NCBI GenBank assembly: GCA_964035015.1
Contig: OZ035997.1
Location: forward strand, 10,639,473 to 10,703,472
Origin: Corallium rubrum
Taxonomy: Eukaryota > Cnidaria > Anthozoa > Scleralcyonacea > Coralliidae
Reading direction: 5' to 3'
Length of the DNA: 64,000 nucleotides
The notes beneath the pieces were generated by a model that was given only the letters and a program-made list of their open reading frames with translations, ran no database searches and was not told the DNA's origin. Shown one piece after another: positions 2,715 through 61,994 of the stretch; the first letter of the stretch is position 1, and each line of letters starts with the position of its first letter. The position numbers were made by a program, and so were the translations under genes.

Positions 2715-3595
2715 GGCATCATTCTCGTTGTTAAATACACAGAAGTGTCGTCAACATACCTACGATAAAATAAAACACTGGGGCCATCGTAACTGTTTAA
2801 CCAAATTCGTTCATAATAACCCATGAAGAGATTGGCGAGTACTGGTGCTAAAGGGGAACCCATATATAGCTACTCCATCGATTTGGTCATAGAATAAACC
2901 ATCAAATAAAAAGTGGGTTTGTGAGGTGGCAAATAGAAATAGTTGTTTGAGATCTTTTCTGCTAATTGGAAATTTTGGTTGGTTTTTGAAAATAAGATTT
3001 AGCGCGATCTCAATTGTTTCAGTTAACGGAATGTTTGTGAACAGGCTTTCTACATCGAAAGATATGAAGAATTTGTTACTGGAATCAAAATTTAAAAAAT
3101 CTTCAACGAACGAAAAAGAGTCCTTAGTTGTATGATCGTCAGGTATGAGTAGTTTGTAATTGTAAGCGTTAGTAGATGATACGATAGGTCTAAGAGGAGG
3201 TGCTTGGTTAGATTCTCGATATTTATGAAGCTTAGGTAAACCATAAAATCTCGCTGGTTGTGAGCCTTTAGGAGATATTTTGATAAGTGCTATCACCTAA
3301 AGAACCTTGGTTTTTTAGTTTCCTAAGACGTTGAACTTTGGCTTCTCTAAAGAGCGTAGGATCCTTATCTAATCGTTTAAACTTTAACTGATTGTTAATA
3401 ATACTAAGACAAGAGTTCTTATATACCTGGCGTTCCGTAATGACTACTCCATTTCCCTTGTCAGGCTTCAGAATAATAATATTTTCATTGTTTCTAATGT
3501 TCCTTAAAATATGGTGTTTCTTCAGGTCCGCTGGAGTGGGACGATATGACGAGATGTAACTTTGAGCGATATGAGCAAGTTCATTCTGGTCTATG
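2715..3595 (-). pseudogene. PLE: RT core, frameshifted
   Basis: Two overlapping frames carry the RT fingers and palm. 3595-3268 holds the PDKGNGVV motif. 3296-2811 holds ARFYGLPKLHK and SFDVESLFTNIPL (motif A), then breaks in the conserved GVA(M)GSP stretch, apparently by a 4-bp insertion near 2865. The YVDD catalytic motif survives in a third frame near 2755. At least three indels therefore separate the parts. The 5' end is cut at 3596 by the junction with the inverted copy. Confidence 0.85.
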
Positions 3596-10665: not shown

Positions 10666-10757
10666 ACAATATCTGATATATCTTCAACAGTTTTAAATAT
10701 GACCTCAAAGTGTTTCTACAGTATATTAAGTATTATTTACATGAGGTCTGAGAAGCT

Positions 10758-12272: not shown

Positions 12273-12401
12273 CGCCGTCCTATACCCACGAGGCAAACAA
12301 GAAGAAGCGAGAATGACAAGCTAAGAAATGGAAAAAGCAATTCAAATAATTTAATTCATGTCCAGTGCCATCTAAATACACCGAAGAATCAAAATAACCC
12401 T

Positions 12402-15098
12402 ATGTTCGTACCGGGACTTATTTTGTCTAATGTTATGTCCTTATCTCCGAAAATGGACGAAATAAGACCATTCGTTTTAAACTCGAACGCAGAAGTTGCC
12501 GCCTTTACCGAGACGTGGTTGAGGGATTCCATCCTAGATTCGATAGTTGATATTCCTGGCTACCAAATAGTGCGAAAAGATCGCGTTAATAGAATCCATG
12601 GTGGAGTTTGCATCTATATCCATAATCAGGTAAAATTTTCTATTTTACATGATTTACATAACCCATTGTTTGAAGTTCTTTGGACGAAATTACAACCTAA
12701 AAGACTTCCTCGTGGGATAACTAGTATTGTCATAGGAACAATATACCACCCACCAGGTTCAGACAACCTTTCAATGATCGACTATCTCATTAATTCCTTA
12801 ACCAGTATTGAAGCATTGTATGCTAATTGCGGAATTATCTTAATGGGCGATCTAAACAGGCTGAACACTTCCCGTATTAATCGCCAGTTTAAGTTGAAAC
12901 AACTAATAAAATTTGCTACTAGAGGAGAGAGAACTCTTGACGTTATTTTAACCAATATTAGCCAGTTTTATGACAGTCCACAAAAATTTTCACCCTTCGG
13001 TCTTTCCGACCATTTTACAATAAAAGTCCTTCCTAAGGCTAGAACTTTTACCACCAACAGTTTTAAAGTTATCAAGACACGAGATCTGAGACCAAGTAAC
13101 AAAAAAGCCCTCGGTAGAGTCCTTTCAACGGTGGATTGGTCATGCTTAGACAAAATCTATTCTTGTGAGAATAAACTAACAGTTTTCAATAATATTTTGT
13201 CTAAAACTCTAGACACAATTATGCCAATTAAAGATAAGAAAATCCATGTAAATAATGCCCCCTGGATGACGGAAAAACTTAAATCCGCAATAAAAAATCG
13301 ACAACGTGCGCTGAACACTGGAAATAAAACTGCCTTTAAGTACTATCGGAATCAGGTAAACTCTGAACGAAAGAAATGCAGACAGTTTTACTTCCATGGT
13401 AAGATCAATAATCTAAAACATACTAAGCCCAAAGACTGGTGGAGTGCTGTTAAAAAGATTAGTGGAATGGATCCTGTTACAAAATCTGACATTTTTTCGA
13501 CATTACAAGTTGACAAACTTCACCAGATGAGTAATACGGCGATAGCTAACGAAATTAATGACAGTTTCTTAGAACCTTTGCGAACGTTTCAACCGTTAAA
13601 AGCTCCTAATTATGTGCGTATCTCGGATAATATCAATAATTTTAGCTCTGAATTACTGTCGGTGTCAGAGGATGAGGTTTATAAATGCCTGAAATCGCTC
13701 AATCCTTACAAATCTTCAGGCCCGGACGATATCCCATCTTGGATCTTCAAAGAATTCGCAGAATTACTCTCGCTGCCCGTCAGCAAAATCTTAAATTGTT
13801 CCTACAAGGAACAACAATTACCTCCAGTCTGGAAGATGTCCAACACTGTCCCAATTCCAAAGACCACACCAGTAAACAATATAAATAAACATCTTCGCCC
13901 TATTTCCTTAACACCTGTTCTTTCGAAAATAGCTGAAGAATTTGTGGTAAGGGAACATTTGAAACCAGCAGTACTCGAAGTGCTGGATCCAAACCAATTT
14001 GGTGTCATCCCAGGCTCATCAACAAGCCAAGCTCTGGTTAAAATGTTCCATAAATGGACTGAAGCAACGGACGGAAATGGAGCTTCTGTTCGAGTTATCA
14101 TGTTTGATTACCAAAAAGCTTTTGATTATGTTGACCATACCATTCTTTTATCAAAACTTAATCGTCTCCGTGTCCCCACTACGACCATAAATTGGATTGC
14201 AGATTTTCTCTGCAATAGGAAACAACGGGTAAAAATGGGAAATGATTGTTTTTCTGAATGGAGAAATGTTCCTGCTGGTGTCCCACAAGGTACTAAACTT
14301 GGACCTTGGCTCTTTATAATAATGATCAATGACCTGTCTCCAAATAGGGATGATCAAGTTAAATTTGTTGATGACTTAACTATTTCAGAAACAGTGCCAA
14401 AATTTAGTCACAGTAAGGTCCAAGATTATGTAACGGATATCCAAAAGTGGTCTGACACTAACTTGTTCCGCTTGCACGACGATAAATGTAAGGAACTAAG
14501 GATCGATTTTAAAAAGAATAACAGCATTTTCACTCCAATCCACGTAAATGGAAAACAATTAGAAGTCGTTGAGGAGGCAAAATTACTTGGTCTCACTTTT
14601 ACGTCCGATTTAAAGTGGAATAATCATGTGCATAACATTGTGTCGAAATGCTCAAAACGTTTATATCTGCTTGTGCAATTAAAGCGCGCCAAAGTTCCTG
14701 CTAAAGACATCACTCAATTTTACTCTACATGTATCCGTCCAATATTAGAATATGCTTCCACTGTTTTTCATTATTCACTCCCGAAGTACTTGAGTGATGA
14801 TATTGAGCGCATTCAAAAACGTGCTCACTCCATTATATACCCACTACTTAAATACGAAGGCGCGTTAGTGGAAAGTGGCTTAGCAACACTTCATGACAGA
14901 AGGAAACAAGCATGCGAAAAACTTTTTAAACAAATTTTAGAAGACCCTAATCACAAATTAAACAATCTTATTTCAAAAGTAGATACGTCTCTTAATTACA
15001 ATTTGAGAAATATAAAGAAGATTCATATTCCTAATTTTAACACAGTTCGTTTCAAGAACTCATTTTTAGTAGCAAGTAGTCTTAATATTAGCAATTAA
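12402..15098 (+). CDS. LINE ORF2: endonuclease-reverse transcriptase
   Basis: An 898-residue protein. The N-terminal third is an apurinic-type endonuclease: AAFTETWL, GGVCIYIHN, MGDLNRLN and the SDHF motif are present. The central part is a reverse transcriptase: SSGPDDIPSWIFKEF, LRPISLTPVLSK, MFDYQKAFDYVDH (motif A), PAGVPQGTKLGPWLF (motif B) and FVDD (motif C, a variant of YADD). A C-terminal domain follows. It acts by nicking DNA and copying the element RNA at the target. ORF1 ends 129 bp upstream. The closest match is the CR1/L2/Jockey group; the exact clade is not determined. Confidence 0.9.
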   Translation: MFVPGLILSNVMSLSPKMDEIRPFVLNSNAEVAAFTETWLRDSILDSIVDIPGYQIVRKDRVNRIHGGVCIYIHNQVKFSILHDLHNPLFEVLWTKLQPKRLPRGITSIVIGTIYHPPGSDNLSMIDYLINSLTSIEALYANCGIILMGDLNRLNTSRINRQFKLKQLIKFATRGERTLDVILTNISQFYDSPQKFSPFGLSDHFTIKVLPKARTFTTNSFKVIKTRDLRPSNKKALGRVLSTVDWSCLDKIYSCENKLTVFNNILSKTLDTIMPIKDKKIHVNNAPWMTEKLKSAIKNRQRALNTGNKTAFKYYRNQVNSERKKCRQFYFHGKINNLKHTKPKDWWSAVKKISGMDPVTKSDIFSTLQVDKLHQMSNTAIANEINDSFLEPLRTFQPLKAPNYVRISDNINNFSSELLSVSEDEVYKCLKSLNPYKSSGPDDIPSWIFKEFAELLSLPVSKILNCSYKEQQLPPVWKMSNTVPIPKTTPVNNINKHLRPISLTPVLSKIAEEFVVREHLKPAVLEVLDPNQFGVIPGSSTSQALVKMFHKWTEATDGNGASVRVIMFDYQKAFDYVDHTILLSKLNRLRVPTTTINWIADFLCNRKQRVKMGNDCFSEWRNVPAGVPQGTKLGPWLFIIMINDLSPNRDDQVKFVDDLTISETVPKFSHSKVQDYVTDIQKWSDTNLFRLHDDKCKELRIDFKKNNSIFTPIHVNGKQLEVVEEAKLLGLTFTSDLKWNNHVHNIVSKCSKRLYLLVQLKRAKVPAKDITQFYSTCIRPILEYASTVFHYSLPKYLSDDIERIQKRAHSIIYPLLKYEGALVESGLATLHDRRKQACEKLFKQILEDPNHKLNNLISKVDTSLNYNLRNIKKIHIPNFNTVRFKNSFLVASSLNISN

Positions 15099-19739: not shown

Positions 19740-22700
19740 TTCTTGAATTCTTAATTGCCATAAAAAATGAAGGAACAAAATACTAAGCAAAACGCAAGAT
19801 CTTTGAGATCTTTACTTAAAGAACTACCTTATTTTAACTTTACGGGTGATTTAAGTTCTCATCTAGGCCAATTCAATAATAGTATTTCTTCTGATTTTCA
19901 AACCAAACGTAATTTAAATAAATTGACTAGCCTATATGACCTAGATTTATTTAGTTTGAATGGCCGAATCGATGATAACTTGAATGTTAATAGTGACTTT
20001 CCAAATCAATGTACACAAAATCAAAGTCGCTACTTTTCTCCTCATAGTTTTAGACAACTTAGGACTAAATTACCTAAATATCAGTTGGACTCTAGTCTAT
20101 CAATATTTCACAATAATATTGTGAGCTTAAATCGTAATCTGGAAAATCTACAGACTCATATATTACATGAGAACTTGATTTTCACTTCAATGTTATTGGT
20201 TTAACGGAGACTAAAATTACCAGTGTAAATGACAGTACATGTCATCCTACAATTCCAGGTTATGATTTTGAATATGTGCCCACGCCTTTAGCTTGCGGAG
20301 GGGTTGGTGTCTTTGTTGACACATCGCTTAATTACTTTGTCATTGATAAGATTTCTAATGAGTACTTTCAAGCATTATGGATTGAGATTCCTTTTATAAA
20401 AAAGAAAAACGTAATATGTGGCATTATTTATAGACATCATAATTGTCCAGATCGTTTTCAATCTTATTTTGAAGATAATTGAAAAACTGACGGCTAGCCT
20501 ACTGGAAAGACTATTTATATCATGGGCGATTTCAATATTGATCTTCTAAAGTGTCAAACATCTCGTTATAGCCATGAATTTTTGTTATCTCTACAGAGTT
20601 GTTGTCTCATTCCAACAATCGATAAACTAACACGTGTCCGTAATACTTCAGCAACCCTCATTGACAATATCTTGGTTAATAATCCTGACCAAGTGATTGC
20701 TAGTGGAAATATTATAACAGATATAAGTGATCATTTTTCACAGTGTTGTATTATTAAATCCTCAAGGGATAAAATTATACCAAAAAAAAGTAAAATGCGT
20801 GATTTTTCGCGATTTTCGGCTGAACGTTTTTATAATGATCTTTCCCAAGTGAAATGGAATACCATCGTTTCAAATGGTGGCAATGATATAGATAAAATAT
20901 TTTCTTCTTTCTATAATAGTTTTAATAAGATAGTCAATAAACATGCACCAATGAAAACAATTTCGCATCGTAAAGCTAAACAATTATCTAAACCCTGGAT
21001 TACAAAAGGGTTACGAGCTTCAATTAGAATTAAAAATAAGTTATTTGTGTCCGATAATGAAAAATATAAACGTTATAGAAATAAAATATGCGAATTAACA
21101 CGATTGAGTAAAAAGCAATATTTTTACGAATATTTCAACAATAATATACGTAATATGAAAACAACATGGGAAGGAATAAATAATTTATTAAATCGTAAAC
21201 CGAGAAAATATAAAGCAATAAATGCACTCAAGGATTATAAAAATGATAACAAAATTACTAGGGATTATACACGCATTCCAAATATCCTCAATGAGCATTT
21301 TGCATCAGTTGGATCTTCACTCGCAAGTAATTAAACTACCACAAACGGAACAATATTATAGGGATTTTCTCGGTAAATCAGTATCCCCTGATGCATCTTT
21401 CTTTTTTGATCCTATTACTTCAGATTAGATTAAATTTGAAATATTATCTATGCCTAACAATAAATCCCATGGTTTATACTCTTGCCCTGCACAGTTATTA
21501 AAACATGCGTGTGATATTGTATCAGATGTATTAGCTAGGATATTTAATATATCTATAATAGTTGAAACTTATCCTGTAAAACTCAAAATGTCCAAAATAA
21601 TACCGATATTTAAAACTGAGGATGAGACAGATTCAAATAACTACAGACCAATTTCGTTACTGTCAAATTTTTACAGACTTTTTGAAAAAATGATGTATAA
21701 AAGAATGAAATCGTTTATTGAGGAAAATAAGATATTATCTTCTTCACAATACGGTTTCCGTAAGGGTCATTCGACACAACACGCAATTATTGATTTTGTA
21801 GAAGCAATACAAACTAACATGGATAAACGATTGTTTACCTGTGGGTTTTTTATCGATTTGAAGAAAGCATTCGATACAGTGGACCATGATATTTTGATTG
21901 GTAAACTCAATTACTATGGTTTCCGTGGAATTACAAATACCTGGTTTTCTTCTTATCTAAGTGAAAGAACACGAACAACACAAATTGGTTCTTACATATC
22001 AAACAAAGCTAATATTAATTGTGGTGTACCTCAGGGGGCTATCTTGGGTCTACTTCTATTTTTGTTATATATTAATGACATACAAAATTGTTCAAATGAT
22101 CTTAAATTCTATTTGTTTGCCGACGATACTAATATTTTGTATGCTGATAAAAATCTCAAAAGTTTAGAAACGGTAGTAAATCGTGAGTTACGTAAACTCT
22201 ACAATTGGTTAACTTCAAATAAATTAACTCTAAATATAAAAAAGTCAAATTTTGTTATATTTCGTCCTTATCAAAAGAAACTTAAAATTCAACCAAAACT
22301 TAGTATATATGATAATGATAAACAGAAGAATGTTCCACTTGAATGTAAAGAGTTTATAAAATATCTTGGTCTAATAATCGATAAGAGCCTCTCATGGAAA
22401 CAACATATTGATCATATAGCCACTAAGATTATAGTAAAATCGTGGGATTAATTGCTAAATTGAGACATTTTATTTCTTTACGTACCCTTTTGAACATTTA
22501 CCAATCATTAATTCATCCTTATTTATCATATGGATTGATTCTTTGGGGACAGGCATTTAAATCATATTTACAAAAAATCTTAAAGCTACAGAAGCGAGTA
22601 CTTCGCTTTATTTTCTTTGGTAATAGAAATGAACATGCAGTCCCGTTATTTATTGATGCAAATATTTTACCAGTGAGTTTTTTATACTGCGAATCTGTGT

Positions 22701-23310
22701 CTAATTTAATGCATGATGTTAGTAATAATTTAACTCCAACTAATATATCAGATTTATTCACCAACACCTCCCGTATACACTCCTATAATACGCGATCATC
22801 CACAGTAAAACACTTTTATATTAAACCCTCTCGCCTTGAAATTCAAAAACTTGCTTTTTCGAGATTTGGCGTTAAATTATGGAATGGGATAGCGTGCTCT
22901 GTTAGAGAATTACCTAAAAATAAATTTAAACGGAAGATTCATCAAATACTACTTGATGTATTAAAAGAAGAGGATCAATATATTGAAGTCTCTACGATCA
23001 TTAAAAAATTTTTAAAAATTTAAGTATGTATGTGCATGTGCACGTATATACAAGCATATGTGATAATATACACATGAATATATATGCCTATTGTTATGAT
23101 TTATCTATAACACCTTTATTTGGCATCTTTTTCTTTTTCTTTTCTTTTTCCTACAAAAAGGTTTTCTTTTTCGTTTAATTGTATTATTTGGACTGACCCT
23201 CCTAGATTAGCTAAAGCTACCTGTGGGCAAGTCTTATCTTGTATATATATTATTTTTGTGTATTTCTAATAAAAGTCTAAAAAAAAAAGTCTAAAAAGTC
23301 TAAAAAAAAG
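19740..23310 (+). pseudogene. decayed LINE (endonuclease-RT), AT-rich
   Basis: Plus-strand pieces of a single ORF2: 19767-20204 (N-terminus and endonuclease start), 20205-20480 (YDFEYVPTPLACGGVGVFVD), 20522-21334 (MGDFNIDLLK and SDHF endonuclease motifs), 21336-22451 (RT: NYRPISLLSNFYRLFEKM, FFIDLKKAFDTVDHD, GVPQGAILGLLLF, FADDTN) and 22442-23023 (C-terminus). In-frame stops near 20480, 21334 and 21428 and shifts near 20190 and 22440 separate them. The 3' end has GTCTAAAAA repeats (23270-23311). It is non-LTR, of the Jockey/CR1 type, and inactive. Confidence 0.88.
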
Positions 23311-39600: not shown

Positions 39601-42600
39601 AGATGCCTGCCAAAAATCGACAAGGTCATGGCGCATATAGCTTCGCGCATGATAATTCATGGTTGACAGGGGTAGGGAGCGGCAAAATAGACAAACGAAA
39701 AACAAACAACTGGGGTAGGGTTAGAACCTTTACTGTGTAAATATACCCGAATTTTTCGCGTCCCTCTCCCCAGTTCCCTAGCCTCCCTCGCCCACTAGTC
39801 CTCGCGCGCAGAAGAGGCAGAGAGACTAGAGAGTTGCCTGCGGAGGAGGCTAATAACATTTGTAGTGCTACGTCACTTCCGGTAAGCCTCGTGCGAGGCA
39901 CTAGCGAGGAGAGCACTAGTGAGGAAGGAGCAGAGAGATTGTAAGCGAACTTGAGTGAATAAACGAGTAAGAACGAAGATACAACATTGGCGACGAGGAT
40001 GGCGACGATGCCCATCGTAAACCCAATGCCTGCATTTGATCCTGACTCGGACATTGGAGCAAACATCGGCCCCAAATGGAAAATATGGATGGAAGACTTT
40101 GAGATGTACATTACCGCGAATGGCATTACAGATAAAGCCAAGAAGCGAGCGCTGCTTCTATATCAGGCAGGCGCTCGAGTCCGCGAAATCTTTCGACAAA
40201 TCCCCGATAATGGTGAGAACAACGACTATGACAAGGCGGTTGAGAAACTAAACGAATATTTCGAACCGCAAAAGCATCGATTGTACGAGGTGTACAAATT
40301 TCGCGAGGCACGACAAGACGCCAGTGAAACTTTAGACAAATATTACATACGATTGCGGACTTTATCTCCACGCTGTGAGTTTGCTGATCCAGATTTTGAA
40401 ATAATGGCCCAAATTGTCTTATGTGGCCGCTCGAGCCGACTCCGAAAGCAAGCTCTACGGGATCCCAAGTTGACGTTGAAAGACCTACTAGTCCTGGGCC
40501 GCCAATTTGAACGAAGTTGTCAACAAGCTACAGAGATCGAGGAACATACGAGAAACAATCAAACCGTCAGGGGCGTAGGAAGCGGGGGGGCCGGGGGGGC
40601 CGCGGCCCCCCCAATATTTTATAAAGGGGGGCCGGAATAGCTTTCGGCCCCCCCAAAAAATAATTGAATTTAAAAAAATTGCATTATAAGTGCGACTTCG
40701 ATTGCGCTGATCGGCCAATTAATAATAATAATCCATCCTGACTCACGGACAGCATAGACTCGCAAATTATAATGAAAGAATTAATGAAAGGGCCCAACGA
40801 AAAAGGTAGAAGAGACTCTGAAAATGCCATTTCCGACGATCTAGAGACTCCAAATTTTCAAAAATTTCCCGCTCGGCGCCAACCATGGTGGCGCCTCGTG
40901 GGAGTCGGCCCCCCTAACTTTATCAAGCTTTCTACGCCCCTGCAAACCGTTATGAACGAGGAGGTTGTTCTGGATGCTGTTCGCAACACCTCCGCTGAAG
41001 AGACACGGCCGAAAGGGGTTTGCAAGAACTGTGGTGGTGAATGGCCACACAACACGGGAATATGTCCAGCGAAGGGCAAAGAATGCCGAAATTGCTCAAA
41101 AACAAACCATTTTGCGAGAGTATGTCGATCTGCGCCTGCGGTGGCGCGAGGCCAGCAGCAAAATCGTGGACGATGGCAAGGACGTCATGAAAAGAAACCT
41201 ATTCGGCCCCTCAATGTCTCGGACAATGACAATGAATCAAGTGACTCAGACAATTATTGTTATGCAGTCAACAATCCAAAGGCAAAAAATCCTTACACAA
41301 AGGTGAAGATTAACAATCGAAATGTAAAGTTTACTGTTGACACTGGATCCAGCATAAACATAATCGATCAACAAACCTTTGAGCAGTTGGGGCAGTATAC
41401 GTTGTCCAAAACAAACATCCAAGCTTATGCATTTAATTCAAAGGTCCCTGTTGAAATGAATGGGAAATTTACTACCATCATGGAATCACGACGCAAAATT
41501 ACGGTGGCAACCATCTACGTCACAAAAGAAGACGGTGGTCGTCTTTTGAGTGGGTCAACTGCAGAAGAGCTAGGCTTAATCAGCTTGCACTTGAATGCGG
41601 TCCAAACAACCAAATCATCGCAAACATCACCGACGGGTACATCAATTAAAGATAGGGGAGTACAATGTGTAGTACAGAAGCATCCCAACGTTTTTCGTGG
41701 CCTCGGGAAACTACGACATCAAACCGTTGAACTGCTTGTTGACAAAGATGTAAAACCAGTTACTCAACGCCAACGTCGCATACCATTCCATCTGAGAGCT
41801 AAAGTCGATGCGGAGCTAAGCCGTTTACAAGATGAGGACATCATCGAACGCGTACCAGACACAGAAGCAACTGAATGGATATCACCAATCGTCATCGTGC
41901 CAAAGAAAGAGGATAAGATTCGTTTATGTATTGACATGCGAGCGGCCAACACAGCTATCAAACGCATTAGGCACCCCATACCAACTGTGCAGGACATTTC
42001 GCATGAATTAAATGGTGCCAAATTCTTCACAAAATTAGACCTTACGCAGGCATATCACCAACTTGAGTTAGCCCCTTCCAGCCGGCAAATCACAACATTC
42101 ATCACACATGCCAGACTGTATCGGTTTAAGCGTTTAAACTACGGCACAAATTCGGCAGCGGAGATCTTTCAACATGCGTTGCAACAAGTTTTGCATGACA
42201 TCCCAGGAGTCCGCAATATTGCCGATGACATTTTAGTCTTTGGATCGTCTTACGAAACACATAACAAAGCTTTGGATGAGTGTCTACATCGCCTTGACAC
42301 CCATGGTTTGACCCTCAACTTCGACAAATGTCAGTTTCTACAACCTCAGCTAGAGTTTTTGGACTCAATTTTTCAAAGGACGGAGTTCGTCCAGACCCTA
42401 AGAAGGTCTCTGCCTTGGCTAAGGCTGCTATGCCCACCACAGCAAGTGAGGTCCGAAGCCTCCTTGGCATGGCTAATTATAGCTCACAATTTATTCACAA
42501 CTTTGCCACTATCACAGAACCACTACGTCAACTCACCCACAAAGGAACACCCTTTACATGGAACCAGGAACATGACAACGCGTATACCACCCTTCGAGAG

Positions 42601-45600
42601 GCTTTAATCAACCGTCCGGTGATGAGTTACTTCGACGTCAACAAAGCCACGGAAGTGACAGTGGATGCCAGTCCAGTGGGGCTGTCAGCGATCCTGGCTC
42701 AGCGCGATTCGAATTCATCCTCCCCAAATATAGTCGCTTATGCTAGTCGTACTCTTACCCCTACCGAGCGACGGTATTCGCAAACCGAGAAGGAGGCGCT
42801 GGCCGTGGTGTGGGGTATTGAGCATTTACATATATATCTATATGGGGCAACCTTTACCCTATATACCGACCACAAAGCCCTCGAAGTCATTTTCGAGAAC
42901 CCGACTTCAAAACCACCAGCCAGAATAGAGCGTTGGTTCCTACGCCTCCAGCAATACAAATTTCGGGTTGCTTATAAACCAGGCAGCACAAATCCGGCAG
43001 ATTATCTCTCTCGCCATCCCCTGGAGACCGTAAGCAAACACACGCTAACATTGCGGATAAGTATGTGCATTTCATAACGCACACAGCGGTTCTCCCTGCA
43101 CTTACAGTCGAGGAGGTGCGCAAAGCAACCAGCAAAGATACATTACTCAGCTCGGTATGTACAGCCATCCAGACAGGACAGTGGTCCAATCGTGAACTGA
43201 AACAGTTCAAGCCCATCAAAGATGAACTATCTATCGATTACACTAACAATGTGGTGCTTCGGGGCACCAGAATCGTACTACCATCATCGTTGGTACAACA
43301 GGTCATTCAGCTGGCCCATGAAGGTCATCAAGGGCAGGTCAGGACAAAGGCGTTGCTACGGGAACACGTCTGGTTTCCAGAAATGGACAAAAAAGTTCGA
43401 GCGGAACTAGAAACGTGCCTTGCCTGCCAAGCGACTGGGCAACCAAACCAACCAGAACCCCTCCGGTCCACCCCACTACCCAATAAAGCATGGGACAAGC
43501 TCAAAATTGATTTATATGGACCGGACAGTATATTTTGGTGATCCTCGATTGTTATTCTCGATTCCCGGAAGTAGAAGTGTTGTCTTCGATCTCTGCCAAG
43601 ACTGTAATCCCAAAACTTGATGCAGTCTTCGCCCAGCATGGGGTCCCTGCGCAGGTTACCTCAGACAATGGGCCACCGTTCCAAGGACACGAGTTCAACA
43701 GATACATGATCAAAATGGGAATCCAGCATACTACCTCCACACCTCTTTGGCCGCAGGGGAATGCGGAGGTCGAGGCATTCATGAAACCGCTGGGCAAGGC
43801 CATTCGAACCGCGAACCTCGAAGGCAGGCCCTGGAAACAAGAGCTCTCCAAGTTCTTGTTGGCGTATCGATCCACACCTCATTCAACAACAAAGGTACCA
43901 CCGGCCCAGTTGCTATATAACCGAGAAATTCGCGGAAAATTGCCTACACTTCCCCATAACAGCAAGGTTCTTAATCGACACAGCGAAGCCAGGCACAACG
44001 ACCAAGAACAAAAGAAAAGGGGAAACAGATATGCAGATGCTCGACGACATGCGAAAACAAGTGAACTACGGGTTGGAGATAGTGTTCTGGTGTGGCAAAA
44101 GAAAAAGAATAAATTTTCAACTAATTTCAGTCCTACGCCATATACTATTATTGCCATCAAAGGGTCAAAAGTAGTCGCGAGAAACCAACAACAACATGTC
44201 ATCACGCGAAATGTCTCGTTTTTCAAGAAGATAGCGGGGCAAGCAGTTGGCAAAGACGAGGGTGAGGAGGACGTTGTTAGCAGGAGACGAGAGGAAGACG
44301 GAGAGCAAGTACAGGAACAAGGCCAACAAGAACAGCAAGAGCCGAGAAGATCTACGCGAAATACACGTCAGACAAACTTTTATGGACACCCAATGAACTC
44401 GGGTGAGACTCTAAAATAAACACTCAAACAATAATCTCATAGAGAAATTGTTGACACTTGCGTGCCCAGTTTCCAAACAGTTGACATTCGTTTTGTTATG
44501 TTAGAAAAAGGGGGTGATGTAGTGCTACGTCACTTCCGGTAAGCCTCGTGCGAGGCACTAGCGAGGAGAGCACTAGTGAGGAAGGAGCAGAGAGATTGTA
44601 AGCGAACTTGAGTGAATAAACGAGTAAGAACGAAGATACAACAACATTTAAAAGAGAAACAAAAATATATTTCCTTGAAATGTAATACATTAGTTAACAG
44701 TACTATTTAACCATGTAAATTAATTAATTAATCATTAATTAATTTACATATTTAAAACTTAAAATGGTATTGTTAACTAATGTTTTAAATTTGTGAAGAT
44801 ATTTTTTTGTTTCCACTTTTAAATGTAATAAGTATAGGGTATTTTTTCATTAAATTTCAAGTTTTAGGAAGAGCATGTTTTTAGATAATTTGTTCGTTTA
44901 TAAGGCTTATGTAGTTTTAATGCATTTCTTATGTTAATAATGATCATGATAAATTTGATTATTTGCTACAAAATAAATTGTGAATATTTCTGGTAAATTC
45001 TTAATATGATAACGAATTTATGGATTCAGCATGTNNNNNNNNNNNNNNNNNNNNNNNNNNNNNNNNNNNNNNNNNNNNNNNNNNNNNNNNNNNNNNNNNN
45101 NNNNNNNNNNNNNNNNNNNNNNNNNNNNNNNNNNNNNNNNNNNNNNNNNNNNNNNNNNNNNNNNNNNNNNNNNNNNNNNNNNNNNNNNNNNNNNNNNNNN
45201 NNNNNNNNNNNNNNNNNNNNNNNNNNNNNNNNNNTTCAGCATGTTAAATATTGTAAATAAAACTTAAATATGTTATTTAAATATTTTCTTTGAGCTGTTT
45301 ATCATTCTTATTTTTTCATTCCTAACCTCCTAGTATAGTGTAATAACACTGATTTAGGAGTATTTCATTAAAGCATTAAAGTGTTCCTGTTTTGTGTTCA
45401 TAATTTTCTTGGAATTTTCAATTGAATATTTTTCTTAAGGGAAAATACAGGTTTGAGGGTCCAAAATACATGCATAAACATTTCGGGGAAAGAATAAAAC
45501 TAAATGTTACGCATGGTTTAAAAGTCTGACAATCAAAAACTGTTACCAAATAAATAGCATCAGTTGTTGCTATGGCAACAATGACGTTTCAAAATGGCTG

Positions 45601-53084: not shown

Positions 53085-54342
53085 CTAGATTAGAAGTAAA
53101 ACGCAACAAAGTTAACACCGCCTTTCTTGTTTAAGTAAAATGTCTTTGGTAATACTAATAGAAACTTTTTCGTCAAAAAAGTTGTTCTAAATCATGTGGG
53201 TTTTTTTAATTTTGGGAGTTAAAACCAGAAATTATGCTCTAAAGTCTGAGAATTAGAATGATAATCAAGCCCCACGCACTTCCCTTATTTTGTAGGTCTA
53301 AACAAATACTTTAGTAAAATTTGTTTAAAAATTATATCGTTTTCGCACAATGAATTCCACAGCTCATGTAAAACGAATTTAAATCCTCACCCGCTCTTCA
53401 GGTTGTAAGTCATAACTCCGATATACCTTATTGCTATTATAAGCAAGCAATAACTTTTTGCTTTTTGGCATTGCAAGCTTAGCTTTTCAGAATGGATTTG
53501 TGTTGTTGGGGTTGTTATAGTGCAATAGTTAATCAGTAAAATATTGGATTATTTGTGATATCTTTGTATAACAATGATGTCATTGTTCGGTTAGTTTGCT
53601 ACAAGTCTGCAGCTAGTTTTGCCCACGACTAGTCAGATAAAGCTTCATAAAATAACGTTTATCTAAACCGATGTAGGTGCCAATGCATGATTGTTGTTTT
53701 AAAGTACCATAACTCCTAAGGAGAACGTCCAAAAGGCCACCGCTTTAAACACTGATGTGTTAGCTCATATTCTGTTTAAACGCAGCATGAAACGGATTTG
53801 GTTTTTGGTTTGGACTGTCCCAAGTTATGCAAAGGACAACTACCCAGATATTCAAAATAACAAGAGCATGTTTTTGTTCCTAACTGAAAGAGAAAAAATC
53901 ACAAAGACGTTGAAATACTCACTGATATATAGCATTATACATGATAAATGCTTTGTCTAACAAAATAGCCGAAAATGCGCCTCTGGCTCTGCAGTGGGCC
54001 TGCATGTGGGCTTTATTAATTTTTTAACAATTCAATTTTCTCTTATTTTCATTTTAATGTACAAAACTAAAAAGAATGTCACTCTAAAACAAGGTCATGG
54101 AGTCCCCGTTTACACGCGGTACCGAACGAATTCGAAACTGTCTCGAATTCGTATGGTTCCGCCTGTTTACACCGAGAAAAAGTCGGAACCGGTCTCGAAT
54201 TCGTCTGGTTCCGCCTGTTTACACGGCGAAATAGGACGAATTCAAGACCGGAGGCTAACTATATGCATAAATAAATTATAAACGAATATTGAATTATCGG
54301 TCAGTTATAAACAAAAAAGGCCTCGGTTCTCGGTAATTAACT
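53085..54342. other. unassigned; short direct repeats
   Basis: No exon of the EGF/TLDc gene was found here. At about 54100-54260, CTCGAATTCGT and TGGTTCCGCCTGTTTACAC recur twice, with GGAACC-type inverted motifs, likely a MITE remnant. Confidence 0.4.
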
Positions 54343-54348
54343 CTTACA

Positions 54349-54650
54349 TACGGAGCCCCAGAAGTGCCATCCATTAACACAAACGTTTTATTTTAGAATA
54401 CGAAACTTTTCTTTTGAACACACACTTTTTTTTTGAAACACAAATATTTTTTTTGAACACAAACTTTTTTTTGAACACACACACTTTTTTTTTTGCACAC
54501 ACACTTTTTTTTTTGCACACACTTTTTTTTTGAACACACACACTTTTTTTTGAACACACACACTTTTTTTTGAACACACACACTTTTTTTTGAACGCACA
54601 CACTTTTTTTGAACACACACACTTTTTTTGAACACACACACTTTTTTATC
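54349..54650. repeat. left terminal inverted repeat of the 7.6-kb element
   Basis: After ~70 bp of unique terminus, tandem GAACACACACACTTTTTTTT units (about 15-20 bp each) run to about 54646. They are mirrored at 61644-61988. Lysine/cysteine/valine-rich open frames here are repeat artefacts. Confidence 0.92.
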
Positions 54651-54692
54651 GTTTCGTTAAATCGCGGGCTCAAGCGCAGCCTTGTTACAACT

Positions 54693-57600
54693 ATGGCGGA
54701 CAAAAGGGATCACGAAGTTACAAAGGTGAGTTTAATATTAACATAATCTCCGTTGTGAATATATTCTCAACAATATTCTGCTCAAATATTCCAGGGTAAT
54801 GATTTGCTGTGAACTTTTATGTCGACGTTGTTTGTTAGCGTTTAATAGCGACGTCGAGTCGTCGATGAGACGACGATATGTTTGTCGATCGCCGATCTTT
54901 TCTGACAGTGTCACGTTCTGTCATACTTAATATCAGCAGAGTTTAGATCACAAAAATATTACACATGCCGATTTGTGTTGTCGATTTGTGTTACTACGGC
55001 ATTGCAAGATATATCGGCGTGTGAATTACCTCACAAATTACAGTACATGTATATAGTTGATCACACAACTAAATGTCAAATCGGTGACATATTCACCCAC
55101 ATATTATGTAAACCGTTGATAACTTTGTTTATTTCAAGGTTTGTACGTTTTTACGTGATAATGACATTGACGACAAAGTGGTGGAAACTGTCCGTGAACA
55201 AAAGGTGAGCAACACTACAGTAACTGATTTGTATGAAGTCTCGAGTAAATAAATAAATTTAAATCATATGTTTACCACAAAATTTTTTTAACAAAAACAC
55301 TGTTCGTGCAGGACTTGCAGCAAACACAATCAGTTACCTTTTTGTACCATCAATTTATAGATTGAAATGTTATATATAGCCAGCTGTTTTATTGTAATTC
55401 ATGTCAAGAGGTTTAAAGGGGAGTGAGAAAGTATGAATCACAGCCAGTTATATAGATAGGTATAAAAAACACAATTGCTTTCTGAGATTCAAAATAAAAC
55501 TATTTCCACTTGGCGACAATGAAAACAGCAACGAGGCCATTGTTCTTAAGATTTAGTGACTGTAATACCCGAACTGTCACATTGAGCTAATAATAGTAAA
55601 CCTTTTTAGTATTCTTTTTGGTGAAGAGTTCACCAAAAATATGTAGACGTTTGTTCAACAACGAGCAAGTGGCTTTGTTATTCATGCACTGTACAACCAG
55701 CCCAGCTGAAAAGACTAAACGTGTGTAATAATAACAATAATTGACCAACATAATGTAATAAACGATTTTAAATATTAAATTTAAAATGGGTTGTTTTCTA
55801 ATAACAATGAATGGGGGGGGGGGGGGGGGGGCAAATATCCTAGGAAATTTGCACCTTTCCCAGGGGATGAATTTCTTAGAAATTTTTTTGCCCAGCAAGG
55901 GTAGGTGGATGAATTTCTTAGGGAGTAAATTTCCTGTAACACTGGTCCACCTACATGTAACTACAACTGTAGCTACTGTAACTATAAATATAATATTCTG
56001 GTTTAACAATCATAATTGTTACAGACAAGTCTACCTACGTTCTTTTGAAAAGTTCAGGCTTCAAAAACATAATTTAAAGATTTGATGCTTTGGTGCTGTT
56101 AATACAACGCAGTAAACGTTTGTGGAGTACATGTGATCAGCAAAGATGGGCTCACAATGTTCTATTGTTACATTTATTAGATGGGATTTGATGCTGTTTA
56201 CATAGCCAGTGATGTCCAACTAAAAGATGAACTTGGAATTAAAGAACTTGGTGTCAGATTGTCTCTCAAAGCTTATTGTGAACGTGGTATTAAAGACAAA
56301 AAGAATACTGATTCAGATAAAGAAAAAGAGGAGAGAAAACGAAGGCTACTGGAAGAAATAATCAACCCAAAAAAAAGCAAAGGTACAAATGCAACTAAGC
56401 AAGAAAACCCTAAAAAATCCAGTAACAAAAAACCTCTCACTGAAAGAAATGTTTTAATGGGTTGGATACATTGTGGTAAAGGTGCAGATGAAAAGCCAAA
56501 AAGAGTCGGCCTAGAAAAAGGAGGGGGTACTCGACAACTTACTGCAACTACTGAGACAACTTATGAAGAATTGATTGAAGCTGGGAAAGCATGGTATTTT
56601 CCAAATGGAGTAAGCCAGTTTGGTAAAGATAAAGAGATGCATTTTGGACTAGCTGATTTTCAACGCCAGGCATTGGAGAAAGAACAGGAAAATCTATCTT
56701 TTACAGTAGGAAATTATGCTGAGAAAAATGGATTTAAATCAAGAATTAGAGTTTATTTAACCAGTCAACTGGCAGAGACTATCATAAGCGATAGCAGTAG
56801 TGAGAGTGAAGACGATGAAAACACCACTGGAGTAAGTACTATCAGTTTACCCCAAGCACAATTTCTTGAGAATGACGAAGAACATGTCGTTGACAACTTT
56901 ACAAGCTTAATCGGAACACACGATGAACGTATCGCATTACAAGAAGAACAAGATCGAGCCTATGCAGAATCTTTACTAAAAGGTCAGGAAAAAGACCAAG
57001 CAAAGAAACTGCTTTTAGAGAAAGAGCTGAACGATGTTGAACACCAAGAACGTTTGAGGAGCATTAGAGATTCCCGTGTATTACCTGAACCAGATATTAG
57101 CGAAAATCATGTTCTTGTGTCGGTTAGACACGTTACCCAAGGAATTGTAACCCGTTCGTTTTACCCAGGATCAAGCATGATGCAATTGTATGACTGGGTT
57201 GGTTCACTGCAGCTGGTTCCTGAATATTTTAAACTTGTGTCACCAATCAGCGGCAAAGTATGGCTACCTGAGGATAAAGCGGATGATGCATGTAGATGCA
57301 TTTTAAACATGATCGAGTGTGATGAGCCACTTCCCTTGTTGACTGATGACGATGTAATCACTACTGCAGGATTTTCAGAGTTGAATGAAACACCTCCTCA
57401 GATGATCCCTCCAGAAGCCTCTCATGAAATAGTAGTGAATAGTACTTCTGAAGTGCCGGAATATATCATGGAAGATGATGACTTTGATAACAATTTGTGG
57501 TATGTTGCAAGCTACACAGTAATTGTTGAATACAGTATAATACGTACGCATGCATGTTATTTATTAAATGTCTATGAAGTGAAAAATGCGTTGGCATTTT

Positions 57601-59531
57601 TGTTGTTTTATTGTAACAGAGAAAGAGTGCAGCTCACTGAAAATTTCAATGAGAATCTGATGCGTACATGTAGTTTTCGCGCTATCAACTTTCAAAATTT
57701 GCCATGGTTAGTTCGTTTTTGGATAAAAATTTGGCTTTCGGTAACAATGCTGACGACGTACGCAAATGGACAACTTGCATGAGAACAATAGATAATATGA
57801 TATTAATCTATTCATCTGGCATTAAACCAGTATTATTACTTGTAAAACTAGGAGTTACTATCGCAAGGGGAGTGCTGCCTTTTTGATTGAGGGTTGTCAC
57901 CTGGGTGGGTTTAATTTATGAGTAGAAAAACTTGTAACAGAATAATTTTTAATAACCAACCAACTAACTACAAGAATTATCACCAAACAATTATTAAACC
58001 ATAATAAGTAATAGATTGACTTATTGTAACTGTGCTTCTCTGCTTGAAAGTTATAGCATGCGTGTGGCTATATTCATGAATTGCAAATAGACAACAGTGA
58101 ATGTCTACTAAGATATAGTATGCTATATAATAAGATATATGATGATATGATATTACATTATATATGATGATATGATGTATGATGATATATCATATATGAT
58201 ATGATATTGTATAATGAATGATATTGTGTTATACAGTACAGTACAGTATATGATATATGATATGATATGGTATGGTGTGGTATATAGTATGGTATTGTAT
58301 GGTATGGGTGTTATATAGTGTGGGGTATGGTATGATGTGGTATGGTATGGGTATTATATAGTATGGAGTATGGTATTGTATGGTGTGGTATATGATAAGA
58401 TATGATACCATGCATGAAACAGGTATGACACATGGTACTGTATGACATGACATGATACAGTAATATGATATTACTTTTTTTTGCAGGAGAAAATCTGCTC
58501 TCAATATGTTGCAGCCAACACCAACAATCTCTATCCATCGTTTGCAGGTTGTTAAGAAGCTGATGGAATTATATTCCCGCCCAGAGTTCTGTAAAACTCT
58601 TCCTAAATTTCATTTTCAAGGGGAATTCGCGAATGATCTAGACGGCCCTAAACGAGCTGTTTATAACTTGTTTTGGGACGAGATCTTCAAAATGCATTTC
58701 GAAGGTGGCGGTGCTGTGGTGCCGAGAGTTGGTCCTGATATGTTTGACGATCTTATTACCATATTAGGACGCGTCGCCCTTCATGGATACATTTGCAGCG
58801 GTCTATTTCCTATCAGAATATCAAAGGTGTTTCTCAAGGCAATGATGTTTGGCGGGAACACCATTAGTCAAGATGAAATGGTACAGGGCTTTCTGGAATT
58901 TGTTACCGATCATGAAAGAGAATTTCTATCGCACTGCCTACGTCAGACAGTCTACACTCCAGAAGAGAAAGAAGAGCTATTAGAAATTGTCGCACAGTTT
59001 GGCGTTCGCTCAATCCCTACACCTGAAACCCTTCATGAGCAGATAGCGAAAATGGGAAGATGTGAGCTACTACAAAAATCGATGTGGGCATGCAGACCTT
59101 TCCGACAGGGTATCACTGACGCCGGTTCTGAAGATCCAATCTGGAGGAATCCAACCGACGTCGATGAGTTTTACGACAACTTATCAGTTTCAGCGGAAAA
59201 GGTCGTTCGAATTACATGCGTCGATGACGAAAATAGTCTCACAAAGTCACAAGTAACCGTGTACGGTTTCTTGCGGCGATATATGAAATCATGTAACAAA
59301 GAGAAAATTAGAGTTCTATACCGCTTTTTCACAGGTGCAGACGTCTTGGCTGTTAAGCAACTGAAAGTAATCTTCCACCTTAACCTTGGGAATCTCCCGC
59401 ATATATCAGCACACACGTGTTCTGGTGTTATCGATTTGCCGTCAGAAGGGTATGTCGGTTACCATGATTTCCACACTCAGCTAGATGCTTTGTTAAACAA
59501 TCCCGATTCCTGGAAATTTTACTTAAGATAG
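54693..59531 (+). CDS. SAM-like / ubiquitin-like / HECT E3 ligase (transposon-borne)
   Basis: Four exons join without a break: 54693-54725, 55139-55204, 56181-57499 and 58487-59531, giving 820 residues. Residues ~12-68 look like a SAM domain (VCTFLRDNDIDDKVVETV, ASDVQLKDELGIKELG). ~145-235 is a conserved block (GGGTRQL, AWYFPNGVSQFGK, RIRVYL). ~281-310 has EEQDRAYAESLLKGQEKD, seen before UBX domains, and ~341-415 is UBX/ubiquitin-like. ~485-820 is a HECT domain with the TC motif in HISAHTCSGVIDLP; Cys784 would be the thioester cysteine, 36 residues from the end. HECT ligases pass ubiquitin from E2 to substrate. The start ATG lies ~43 bp inside the left inverted repeat, so the terminus may act as promoter. 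Confidence 0.87.
58090..58470. repeat. ATGATATG microsatellite in intron 3 of the HECT gene
   Basis: Degenerate tandem ATGATATGATAT and TATGGTATGG units fill the 3' half of the intron before the acceptor TTTTGCAG (58479-58486). The minus-strand frames rich in Tyr/His/Ile/Pro are artefacts of this repeat. Confidence 0.92.
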
Positions 59532-59812
59532 CAAGATTTCATAAACTTGATAAAACTTGGCGCAAGTGTCTTTATTTGGTTTCTTGTTTATATTTTAGTG
59601 TCGCATACTTTTTTTATGTTAACATGCAATGAAACATGTAGTTCGGTTAAATTATAGTTTTGTTTACAATTACTTGTAAAACACATGCATGTACAACGAT
59701 GAACTGGAAAGCAGCACAAATGCTATTTTAATGTTATTCTTATGCTAGTATTGCAGTGGGTGCTAAATATTATGTACAGTTGTTTTGCTAAACGGGTAAT
59801 CATATTACTTAT

Positions 59813-59922
59813 AAGTAATAGCATAAAAAGAGGTGTATTCGCTATTAAACGTCCCGCTCGGTGAGGGTCATTTGTCATTTAGTAAATCTTTAGTAAATCA
59901 CCTCTTTTTATGCTATTACTTT
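59813..59922. repeat. hairpin between the two convergent genes
   Basis: AAGTAATAGCATAAAAAGAG at 59813 is mirrored by CTCTTTTTATGCTATTACTT ending at 59922, with ~23-bp arms. It lies between the HECT stop (59531) and the transposase stop (60223). It may be a tiny MITE or a structure at the shared 3' region. Confidence 0.8.
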
Positions 59923-60222
59923 GTAATATCATGTTTGGGAAAGTACAGTTATCGTATCTATAATGATTTGCCACAACAAAACTAAAGGCGTGTTGGATTA
60001 GCCAATCAGCGTCGATGGTACTTTTCTCCAGGCGAAAGCGAGGGGAAGGTACACTTGTCACTGTTTGGCAAATCTAACGCGCCTTTACTCTTTAGTTATA
60101 CGTGACGAGTTCGCATATACTTTTCCTGCATATATATTAATTGTTTAAATTTGTTTTAGTAGTTCTTTGCCTAGGTACTTCAGTTGGAAATACTTATGAG
60201 TTATGTAAGAAACTGTTTATAC

Positions 60223-61507
60223 CTAGTTATCGACATTTTCAATTAGTTGAAGCAATAATAAATACAATTCTTCAGCCTGCTCTTTATTGTTTGGTCTAAC
60301 AAGTTCGTTTTCCTCCATAATGATCTCAGCTAGTTCTTTGAAATCGCGCGAGCACCCTGATGCAGGTCGTTGGACAGCGCACATCTCAGTTGCAACTTCG
60401 ATTTCTTCTACATTTACTTTACTGCCGTAATCTATAGTTGCAGTTGTCAAAGGTATATGATACAGCGTGTCAGGTCGGCCATGTGGTGAGTCCGCATTAG
60501 TAGATGGTCTTATTTTATGTAAGTTCCATAGTCTCGCTATTCTGTGAAGTTCTTTTTGAATAAGATCACTGAAGCAAAATTTAAGGCACTCCACGTGAAT
60601 ATTGTTTCCATCATCATACATTCCTCTATCCCTTGCATTTTTAAAATAAGTTATCCACCAATCTATACATTCTCTGCGAAGCATGCTCCACCACGCTTCA
60701 ATCCGTTGGTTTGAAACGGATTTACCATACACGAAACTTTTATTGCCCGCAAATTCGTCGTTATCAACTCTTCTAAAATAGCGTTGTACCGCTGCCACAT
60801 TCTTGTTTTCAGTCCCTTTGTCGCTCCGAATAATTTGAGCTGTACAGCCAACTTGTTCAACACAGTCCAAAAAGTACTGGCATATTATTGCAGGGTTATT
60901 ATTTGATGGCCCAACTTCTAGCCACATAATCCGTCGGCTATAGCCATCAATACAACCGTGAATACAGAACCCAAAGGGTTTTAATTATGCCGTCAATATG
61001 CCATATACGATTAGGTCCTTTCCCTCGATATTCCCTTCTTCTTAGTCGATGTCTGAGTCTTGTTTCTACACCCTCGGGATCTAAAACTCTTAATGCTCTT
61101 CTTACAGCTTCTTTACGAACGACCAAACCGTAATCAGTAACGAGTCTTTGATACATTGCACGATATCCAATGATGTTCCCACTTCCGTTTAGTTCTCTTT
61201 CGACAGCTCGAACGACCTCATCAGTAGAGCTATAATTCTTTCGTCTACATAACCCTCGTTTTGTTAGAATCCTCTTTAGCTGTCGTAAACTTAACTGAAT
61301 GCCGTGCGAAGATGCAAGAAACAGCAATATCTCAGTGTACTTCATTCCCAAGTGAAAGTATTTTACAATCAAATCATCTCTTCCATGATCTTCTTGCGAT
61401 GATGGAAGATATTTCGGCAGAACACTCTGCACAATACCAATATGTGCAAGTAATATTACGGGCAGGATCATGACAAAATGAGAAAAAGACTTAAAACGAT
61501 AATCCAA
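60223..61507 (-). pseudogene. IS3EU-type DDE integrase/transposase (one frameshift)
   Basis: The first part, 61507-60947, has a helix-turn-helix-like region (LIVKYFHLGMKYTEILLFLA, SLRQLKRILTKRGLCRRKNY), then GPNRIWHIDG with the first catalytic Asp. After a small deletion near 60985 the frame shifts; 60927-60223 continues MWLEVGPSNNNPA. It carries the second Asp (IIRSDKGTEN) and the Glu (SNQRIEAWWSMLRREC), 41 residues apart, then LKFCFSDLIQKELHRIARLW and an acidic tail. This integrase-core family occurs in fish and cnidarian genomes. It would cut and join the TACGGAG termini. All three catalytic residues survive, but the frameshift makes this copy inactive unless the break is a sequencing error. 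Confidence 0.85.
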
Positions 61508-61643
61508 GAAGTGACTTAACCCTGGTAATATTTGGATTTCAACCGTGGCCGACGCTGTCCTAGAAGCTTATGCTATACTGTAGCCGGGCAATGCTACTTC
61601 GATACAAATAAACGTTGTGCAACAATTGCAAAAGCTTTTTTAA

Positions 61644-61988
61644 AAAAGTGTGTGTGTTCAAAAAAAAAGTGTGTGTTCAAAAAAAAAGTGTGTTCAAAAA
61701 AAAAAGTGTGTGTGTTCAAAAAAAAAAGTGTGTGTGTTCAAAAAAAAAGTGTGTTCAAGAAAAAAGTGTGTGTTCAAAAAAAAAGTGTGTTCAAAAAAAA
61801 AAGTGTGTGTGTTCAAAAAAAAAGTGTGTGTTCAAAAATAAAAGTGTGCAAAAAAAAGTGTGTTAAAAAAAAAGTTTGTGTTCAAAAAGAAAGTTTGTGT
61901 TTCAAAAAAAAAGTGTGTGTTCAAAAGAAAAGTTTCGTATCTAAAATAAAACGTTTGTGTTAATGGATGGCACTTCTGGGGCTCCGTA
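61644..61988. repeat. right terminal inverted repeat of the 7.6-kb element
   Basis: AAAAAAAGTGTGTGTGTTC units run from 61644 to about 61930, then the unique terminus ends in GGGGCTCCGTA at 61988. It is the mirror image of the left end, slightly longer in unit number. Confidence 0.92.
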
Positions 61989-61994
61989 CTTACA

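Follow-up and report, generated by a model that had tools for sequence, protein, structure and literature searches.

A 7,640-bp segment of the red coral (Corallium rubrum) genome, lying at positions 54349-61988 of the 64,000-nucleotide stretch analysed here (the window; contig OZ035997.1), represents one insertion as judged from its termini and flanks within the window. It carries an integrase gene together with a gene whose sequence and predicted fold support its identification as a HECT ubiquitin ligase. One pair of inverted termini, flanked by a 6-bp duplication, encloses both genes, which were therefore inserted together. Taken as a whole, this is probably a cut-and-paste transposon of the IS3EU type in which the ligase is the second gene and acts in trans.

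Boundaries and termini of the element

The boundaries proposed in the earlier note (the 6-bp duplication CTTACA, inverted ends and long repetitive termini) proved exact to the nucleotide (Table 1). The 37-nt tip, TACGGAGCCCCAG..., starts with TACGG and occurs twice in the window, in inverted orientation and with no mismatch (37/37), against an expectation by chance of 0.00 (100 shuffles). The inverted termini extend over approximately 300 bp at 88.9% identity (306 alignment columns, 54349-54647 vs. 61988-61700), and each contains a repeat array, of 12.4 units on the left (Tandem Repeats Finder) and of 15.5 units of 19 bp on the right. The genes begin close to these arrays, the HECT gene 45 nt and the integrase gene about 170 nt inward of them. 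A search for an empty site within the window found none.

Other transposable elements are abundant in the window. That richness could be taken to favor a pair of elements that overlap or are nested, or genes without any relationship enclosed by chance termini, but such readings are extremely improbable and effectively ruled out by the perfect inverted tips, by the inverted arrays of 300 bp, by the presence of the 6-bp duplication exactly at the outer ends, and by the short distances from the arrays to the gene starts.

Table 1. Features of the inserted element (window positions)
Feature	Position	Strand	Remarks
Target site duplication CTTACA, left	54343..54348	.	Same hexamer abuts the tip at each end
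Left terminal inverted repeat	54349..54647	+	Tip 54349-54385, then array of ~20-bp units at ~54405-54647
HECT predicted exon 1	54693..54725	+	ATG start; GT donor, in frame with later exons
HECT predicted exon 2	55139..55204	+	AG/GT borders, in frame; SAM-like region with exon 1 and start of exon 3
HECT predicted exon 3	56181..57499	+	Linker; possible UBX-like module at ~56940-57300
HECT predicted exon 4 and stop codon	58487..59531	+	HECT domain
Catalytic cysteine codon (AHTC)	59418..59420	+	Aligned with Cys of the E6AP HTC motif
Long hairpin between gene ends	59798..59936	.	38-nt arms, 82% complementary
Second long hairpin between gene ends	59981..60098	.	From fold of 59790-60110
IS3-like DDE integrase gene	60223..61471	-	PF24764; start codon at 61471; frame-broken near 60980
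Signal-peptide-like N-terminus (MILPVILLAHIGIVQS)	61424..61471	-	From integrase family statistics and the window's own leader
Right terminal inverted repeat	61700..61988	-	Array of 19-bp units, continuing to ~61642
Target site duplication CTTACA, right	61989..61994	.	Same hexamer abuts the tip at each end

Between the termini, the integrase gene (minus strand) and the HECT gene (plus strand) are both read toward the middle of the element, with their 3' ends facing each other, so that the facing arrangement described previously stands. The region between the gene ends contains two long hairpins, and its fold (59790-60110) has a z of -9.31.

The integrase and its classification

The integrase gene matches PF24764 (E 7.8e-22). 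The DDE integrase-like gene of the earlier note is confirmed, with the correction that a frame break near position 60980, directly behind the codon of the first catalytic Asp, splits this copy; the relative P0018 matches it in one frame at 85% across 234 residues and in another at 82% across 164. The catalytic D, D and E are present in all 17 aligned relatives. NF033516 (IS3, best 1.8e-11) and NF033577 (IS481, best 1.8e-8) are both matched by 17 of 17 chosen relatives, with the integrase member shown scoring below the curated cut-offs of the two models. For the window's own integrase pieces, the best NCBIfam match is IS481 (E 0.024). An HHCC-like pattern, in our own wording, precedes the core in none of the 17 aligned relatives and in none of 100 relatives among those listed with a readable core start. 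No zinc-finger Pfam family was found in the 17 aligned relatives, and the integrase profile had no match in PDB at E up to 1.

According to the available text of PMC10045372 and PMC12730594, IS3EU elements have TA..TA termini, usually a 6-bp target site duplication, and a DDE transposase related to IS3 and IS481, the fungal members having the termini TAYGG..CCRTA. The coral element has TACGG..CCGTA tips, the CTTACA duplication, an IS3/IS481-related DDE transposase and no HHCC motif before the core. These features, including the IS3-like transposase in all 17 relatives, support the assignment to the IS3EU type that had been made from the sequence alone.

Unexpectedly, a signal-peptide-like N-terminus is found in 70 of 89 non-redundant integrase relatives. 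Signal-peptide features occur in 66 of 89 N-terminal 30-mers of the family vs. 12 of 1020 internal ones, and the -3/-1 small-residue rule holds in 49 of 56 cases, compared to 11.5% at random places. Acidic residues are depleted in the leaders, and 46 of the 63 basic residues in 46 leaders sit in the first nine positions, with 14 of the 46 having no basic residue at residues 2-9. The window's own leader has a hydrophobic stretch of 2.55, with V and S at -3 and -1, and no basic residue in its first 16 positions. Could this N-terminus be an intron, or T-rich DNA, read through by the ORF caller? The leaders of P0018-P0021, like that of the window, lack basic residues, as such a reading would allow. 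Nevertheless, we are inclined not to accept it: judged by eye, close relatives keep the hydrophobic N-terminus ungapped from the same Met, P0073, P0103 and P0136, which are named proteins of corals, also start there, and across the family the basic residues cluster at the start while acidic ones are depleted. In the one paper examined that contains both terms, IS3EU and signal peptide occur unrelated to each other. Besides the ligase, this conserved leader poses a puzzle in its own right, in that an enzyme expected to act in the nucleus is seemingly addressed to the secretory pathway.

The HECT protein

The second gene is predicted to have four exons encoding 820 aa, with the HECT domain at the C-terminal end. 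(In the relatives P0004, P0006 and P0016, extra translated letters upstream of ~58487 look by eye like an intron.) A search with the whole predicted protein gave no match at E up to 0.01. On one point the earlier view had to be corrected: the window sequence alone gives no Pfam match to the HECT domain (PF00632), which is clear only through the relatives and their predicted model. PF00632 is matched by 7 of 17 family members (E up to 1, best 1.5e-4), and the profile built from the HECT relatives finds the E6AP HECT domain in PDB (E 1.8e-7), covering nearly the whole domain. The predicted model (mean pLDDT 76.9) has a fold that matches solved HECT structures, with high rmsd and Foldseek TM scores by query of 0.38-0.62 among the matches listed; its least certain stretch, with pLDDT under 50, is residues 293-316, the part of the C-lobe that holds the catalytic Cys. 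This Cys is kept in all 12 sequences that reach the column, the window included, the other 5 of 17 rows having no residue there. Together, the relative profile, the predicted fold and the conserved Cys support the HECT identification, which passes both profile and fold tests.

For the rest of the protein the assignments are more tentative. Residues 1-69 had no SAM match in Pfam up to E 10, and their four weak PDB matches are all SAM domains of SAMHD1 (E 0.15 to 1.5), which is only suggestive of a SAM-like N-terminal part. A UBX-like module in exon 3 is possible, given a pairwise BLASTP match (E 0.009) to a stretch of FAF2. The same stretch had no Pfam UBX match and no UBX structure among its three PDB matches, and when folded alone it gave an unusable model (pLDDT 42).

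Relatives and linkage of the two genes

The searches, which were unequal in reach, yielded 722 clusters of integrase relatives and 17 of HECT relatives. In view of these numbers, the ligase is perhaps limited to one branch of IS3EU, which it may mark, and the proposal that a ubiquitin ligase is standard cargo is probably wrong for the superfamily. Several members are present in 9 of the 17 HECT clusters. The identities of the two sets run roughly parallel, being 70-77% for the near-full-length HECT relatives P0002-P0005 and 62% for P0006, and 75-78% for the integrases P0018-P0021 and 58-59% for P0024, P0025 and P0033. A candidate pair elsewhere consists of one HECT relative, P0005, and one integrase relative, P0019, on contigs of equal size (22,804 bases); it was the only such case among the 17 HECT clusters when these were compared with 120 of the 722 integrase clusters, those that were listed. 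The three named integrase relatives are from stony corals. Viral contigs scanned with the HECT and integrase alignments, and genome contigs scanned with the integrase alignment, contained no relative.

A possible role for the ligase

What would a transposon gain from a ubiquitin ligase? In the scheme that we consider most plausible, promoters in the terminal repeats would drive transcription of both genes inward, and integrase from an intact copy (this one being frame-broken) would bind the 19-20-bp subrepeats, excise the element and insert it at a target cut with a stagger of 6 bp. As an active ligase, the HECT protein would work in trans, its SAM-like N-terminal part selecting the substrate. 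The likeliest substrates would be proteins of the host that restrict transposition or the repair that goes with it, the main alternative being the element's own integrase. Removal of silencing or repair factors, as suggested in the earlier note, is a conjecture. The presence of the ligase hints that the element may alter host protein turnover.

The integrase as target would turn the ligase into a regulator of the element itself, limiting or timing transposition rather than acting on host factors. This is possible, though we favor it less. A trans-acting partner convergent with the transposase is a plausible regulator, the present data fit host and integrase targets alike, and the deubiquitinases of Helitrons have been suggested to protect proteins needed for transposition (available text of PMC9741609). 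On the other hand, the accessory genes of other transposons are also seen as anti-silencing factors (PMC12730594) or repair aids (PMC2836005), although this is an argument by analogy only. Somewhat less likely still, the HECT gene could be a passive host gene, captured once by an IS3EU element and playing no part in transposition. The full element was seen in one copy, its integrase is broken, and the disparity between 722 integrase and 17 HECT relatives would fit such a capture; a single passive event is harder to reconcile with the several members in 9 of 17 HECT clusters, the retention of the active-site Cys in 12 of 12 sequences, the pair on equal-sized contigs and the parallel identities.

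The sequence of the ligase is divergent, which, along with the missing Pfam match of the window sequence and the low model confidence around the Cys, might indicate a decayed, inactive enzyme retained just for binding. We regard this as unlikely, because the residues HTC are found in 11 of the 12 sequences that reach the catalytic column and TC in all 12, and the profile spans nearly the whole HECT domain. A quite speculative idea, to which we give little credence, would unite both puzzles: if the signal peptide were real, it would direct the integrase into the endoplasmic reticulum or the nuclear envelope, and from there the integrase or host factors would be dislocated and ubiquitinated by the HECT protein with its SAM-like and UBX-like (p97-adaptor) parts. 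If so, the transposon would possess its own ERAD-like step, timing the arrival of the transposase in the nucleus. Under the preferred scheme of a trans-acting ligase, the notion that transposons control the protein turnover of their hosts would become open to direct test through the binding partners of the predicted enzyme.

Comparison with known systems

Among the papers listed by the literature searches, which did not extend to the Repbase Reports, none was recognised as describing a transposon-borne HECT gene, and the term HECT has no occurrence in PMC10045372 and PMC12730594, the two papers that mention IS3EU most often. With the IS3EU superfamily as outlined in Repbase (with GingerRoot), the coral element has in common the TA..TA termini, the 6-bp duplication and the IS3/IS481-like DDE transposase; it differs in its HECT cargo, and also in the 19-20-bp subrepeats of its long termini and the signal-peptide-like integrase start, both of which may also occur in other members. 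In its layout it resembles MuDR of maize, where two convergent genes, for a transposase and a helper, are read inward from long terminal repeats. The MuDR transposase, however, is unrelated to that of IS3EU, its target duplication is 9 bp, and its helper is not known to be a HECT ligase.

Known transposon cargo includes enzymes for the removal of ubiquitin or SUMO and others that act on DNA methylation. The fungal TET+ IS3EU elements (transposase, TET/JBP and alpha-kinase; PMC12730594, in part) likewise have an enzyme gene opposite to the IS3EU transposase, but theirs are a dioxygenase and a kinase in fungi, whereas here it is a predicted ubiquitin ligase, and the named integrase relatives are from stony corals. 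Ginger1 elements with OTU or Ulp1, which have Hydra among their hosts, are also integrase-type DNA transposons with an enzyme of the ubiquitin/SUMO system (PMC2836005, in part). Their protease domains, unlike the separate ubiquitin-adding gene described here, are fused to the transposase and remove ubiquitin or SUMO, and their targets are 4 bp. Helitrons with VTD or OTU deubiquitinases provide another case of a transposon-borne ubiquitin-system enzyme, with VTD activity demonstrated (PMC9741609, in part), but these are rolling-circle elements that catalyze the opposite reaction, in contrast to an integrase-type element with a predicted ligase. A separate gene for a ubiquitin-adding ligase would thus provide an activity opposite to that of the known ubiquitin/SUMO-stripping transposon enzymes.

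Structure and classification of the element

Between the two CTTACA copies, which are the 6-bp duplication made on insertion, lies a single element of 7,640 bp, in which the integrase gene is broken and the HECT gene is open. Its 37-nt tips, in inverted orientation, are identical to each other, a result obtained in none of 100 shuffled sequences, and the inverted termini as a whole share 88.9% identity across 306 alignment columns. The left terminus contains 12.4 units of 20 bp and the right of 15.5 units of 19 bp; inward of these arrays, at distances of 45 nt and about 170 nt, start two convergent genes. Within the window there is neither an empty site elsewhere, searched for with the joined flanks, nor a further copy of the element. 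The region with the paired hairpins, between the gene ends, folds with z -9.31; the hairpins are perhaps miniature elements nested there, or else structures formed where transcription ends.

IS3EU elements are described as having TA..TA termini and as lacking an HHCC motif, with duplications that are usually of 6 bp (PMC10045372), and those of fungi as having TAYGG..CCRTA ends, inverted repeats >30 bp and 6-bp duplications (PMC12730594). All of these characters are found in the window's element. An HHCC-like pattern, as worded for this analysis, occurs in none of the 17 aligned integrase relatives (hand-chosen from the 120 listed of 722 found) and in none of the 100 listed relatives whose core start is readable. 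The IS3 and IS481 transposase models each match all 17 aligned relatives, with best E-values of 1.8e-11 and 1.8e-8, respectively; the integrase relative P0018, the one member detailed in full, scores under the curated cut-offs of both. Together with the termini and the duplication, these matches support the IS3EU type proposed in the earlier note.

Coordinates of features in the window
Feature	Position	Strand	Remarks
tRNA-Thr (GGT)	936-1008	+	lone; close to Rfam threshold
Frame ending in GIY-YIG domain	1842-3296	-	adjoining second frame without Pfam match; by eye, presumably Penelope-like
Reverse transcriptase with endonuclease	10752-15095	+
Reverse transcriptase	20498-23020	+
LTR-retrotransposon-like genes, several frames	39963-44416	+	gag (weak), protease, reverse transcriptase, RNase H, integrase
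Assembly gap	45035-45234		200 N, after LTR-retrotransposon-like genes
Repeated GAATTCG and GTTTACAC motifs	54120-54250		short stretch outside left end; by eye
Target site duplication CTTACA, left	54343-54348		identical hexamer on other side
HECT gene start	54693	+	runs towards integrase
Last predicted HECT intron	57500-58486		imperfect TATGG and ATATG type repeats, long runs at 58125-58391
Long hairpins, two, back to back	59798-59936, 59981-60098		between converging gene ends
Signal-peptide-like leader	61424-61471	-	integrase, MILPVILLAHIGIVQS ahead of VLPKYLP
Integrase gene start	61471	-	runs towards HECT gene
Target site duplication CTTACA, right	61989-61994		identical hexamer on other side

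Elsewhere in the window, the two plus-strand stretches with reverse transcriptase, one with an endonuclease, are probably two LINE-like elements.

The integrase and its signal-peptide-like start

P0018 is matched by two minus-strand frames of the window, with 82% identity over 164 residues and 85% over 234. The break lies near 60980, directly after the first catalytic Asp, and because the two frames differ there, the window's copy, barring an assembly error, would be unable to yield a complete enzyme. The PF24764 integrase core is matched by the later part of the integrase (E 7.8e-22) and by all 17 aligned relatives, in which the three catalytic residues are invariant; among the transposase models, the window's own pieces alone match only IS481, with E 0.024. 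The three organisms named among the 120 listed relatives, Montipora capricornis, Montipora foliosa and Desmophyllum pertusum, all belong to the stony coral order (M. foliosa placed by genus), a hint that the window may be cnidarian.

The family's proteins start in a way that is unexpected for a nuclear transposase. The region behind the leader is retained in 116 of the 120 listed relatives, the other four being truncated, and a strongly hydrophobic stretch precedes it in 96 of the 116, in 86 as the most hydrophobic of the protein. With near-copies removed, the stretch is present in 70 of 89, absent in 8, and in 11 the N-terminus is too short; at an equal threshold, 66/89 N-terminal 30-mers pass, compared with 12/1020 internal ones. 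A loose -3/-1 rule at the likely cleavage point, set, like the hydrophobicity threshold, within this analysis and applied to N-termini that are ORF predictions, is obeyed by 49 of 56 (those of the 70 leader-bearing relatives where the motif was located), whereas random positions give 11.5%. Across 55 sequences, the 14 residues ahead of the motif, compared without gaps, share 15% identity, versus 65% in the body. Leaders of 15-32 residues (n=46) hold 63 basic residues, 46 of them within the first nine positions; 32 leaders have one at residues 2-9, and nine have an acidic residue within the first 15. Counting against a signal peptide, the predicted leaders of the window's integrase and its nearest relatives, P0018-P0021, have no basic residue. 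On the tree, sequences with the trait occur to either side of the midpoint root, and at least 12 changes are needed; it is absent from two clades of four, including the one most closely related to the window's branch as its sister group, and the remaining 11 rows that lack it are scattered. A limited literature search found no printed mention of IS3EU with a signal peptide; two papers contain both terms, which in the one examined are unrelated.

The HECT protein and its possible association with the integrase

For residues 1-69 of the HECT protein, Pfam gave no family and the matches are four SAMHD1 sequences (E 0.15 to 1.5), so that the label "SAM-like" in the earlier note would be sensible as a lead only. 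The end of exon 3 resembles FAF-type p97 adaptors, in which EQD..AY..SL is combined with UBX. Its identity to a provisional FAF2 stretch is 23% over 124 alignment columns (E 0.009); neither Pfam nor a PDB sequence search supported the UBX-like reading, and a single-sequence structure model of the piece was unusable.

Do the two genes travel together? The longest contigs of P0005, a HECT cluster, and P0019, an integrase cluster, are equal in length, both 22,804 bases, the only such coincidence among 17 HECT clusters and the 120 listed of 722 integrase clusters. Jittered trials gave a coincidence of any length in 4.6% and of at least 10 kb in 0.18%. Identities run roughly in parallel: 70-77% for HECT clusters P0002-P0005 and 62% for P0006, with shorter HECT pieces in between, and 75-78% for integrases P0018-P0021 and 58-59% for P0024, P0025 and P0033. 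The integrase tree places the window beside P0018, P0020 and P0021, and next to these come P0024, P0025, P0033 and P0061. We infer that the HECT gene is probably a property of the window's integrase branch, not of IS3EU at large, as judged from a search blind to HECT genes elsewhere that are split by introns or more divergent.

Proposed mechanism and comparison with known elements

From what is known of the families, the integrase would cut and paste the element via the terminal subrepeats, promoters would lie inside the termini, and the HECT protein would transfer ubiquitin, to substrates at which one can only guess. Ubiquitin-system cargo is already known in transposons: Ginger1 transposons carry OTU or Ulp1 (PMC2836005) and Helitrons carry VTD or OTU (PMC9741609). 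Fungal IS3EU elements carry TET/JBP and alpha-kinase genes, with kinase and transposase oppositely oriented (PMC12730594). Since the ubiquitin-system cargo of Ginger1 and Helitrons is on the removing side, whereas the HECT gene here is predicted to be ubiquitin-adding, and since the IS3EU cargo described in fungi consists of TET/JBP and alpha-kinase genes, an IS3EU element with a separate ubiquitin-adding gene is, as far as our searches show, a novel form of an established type of element.
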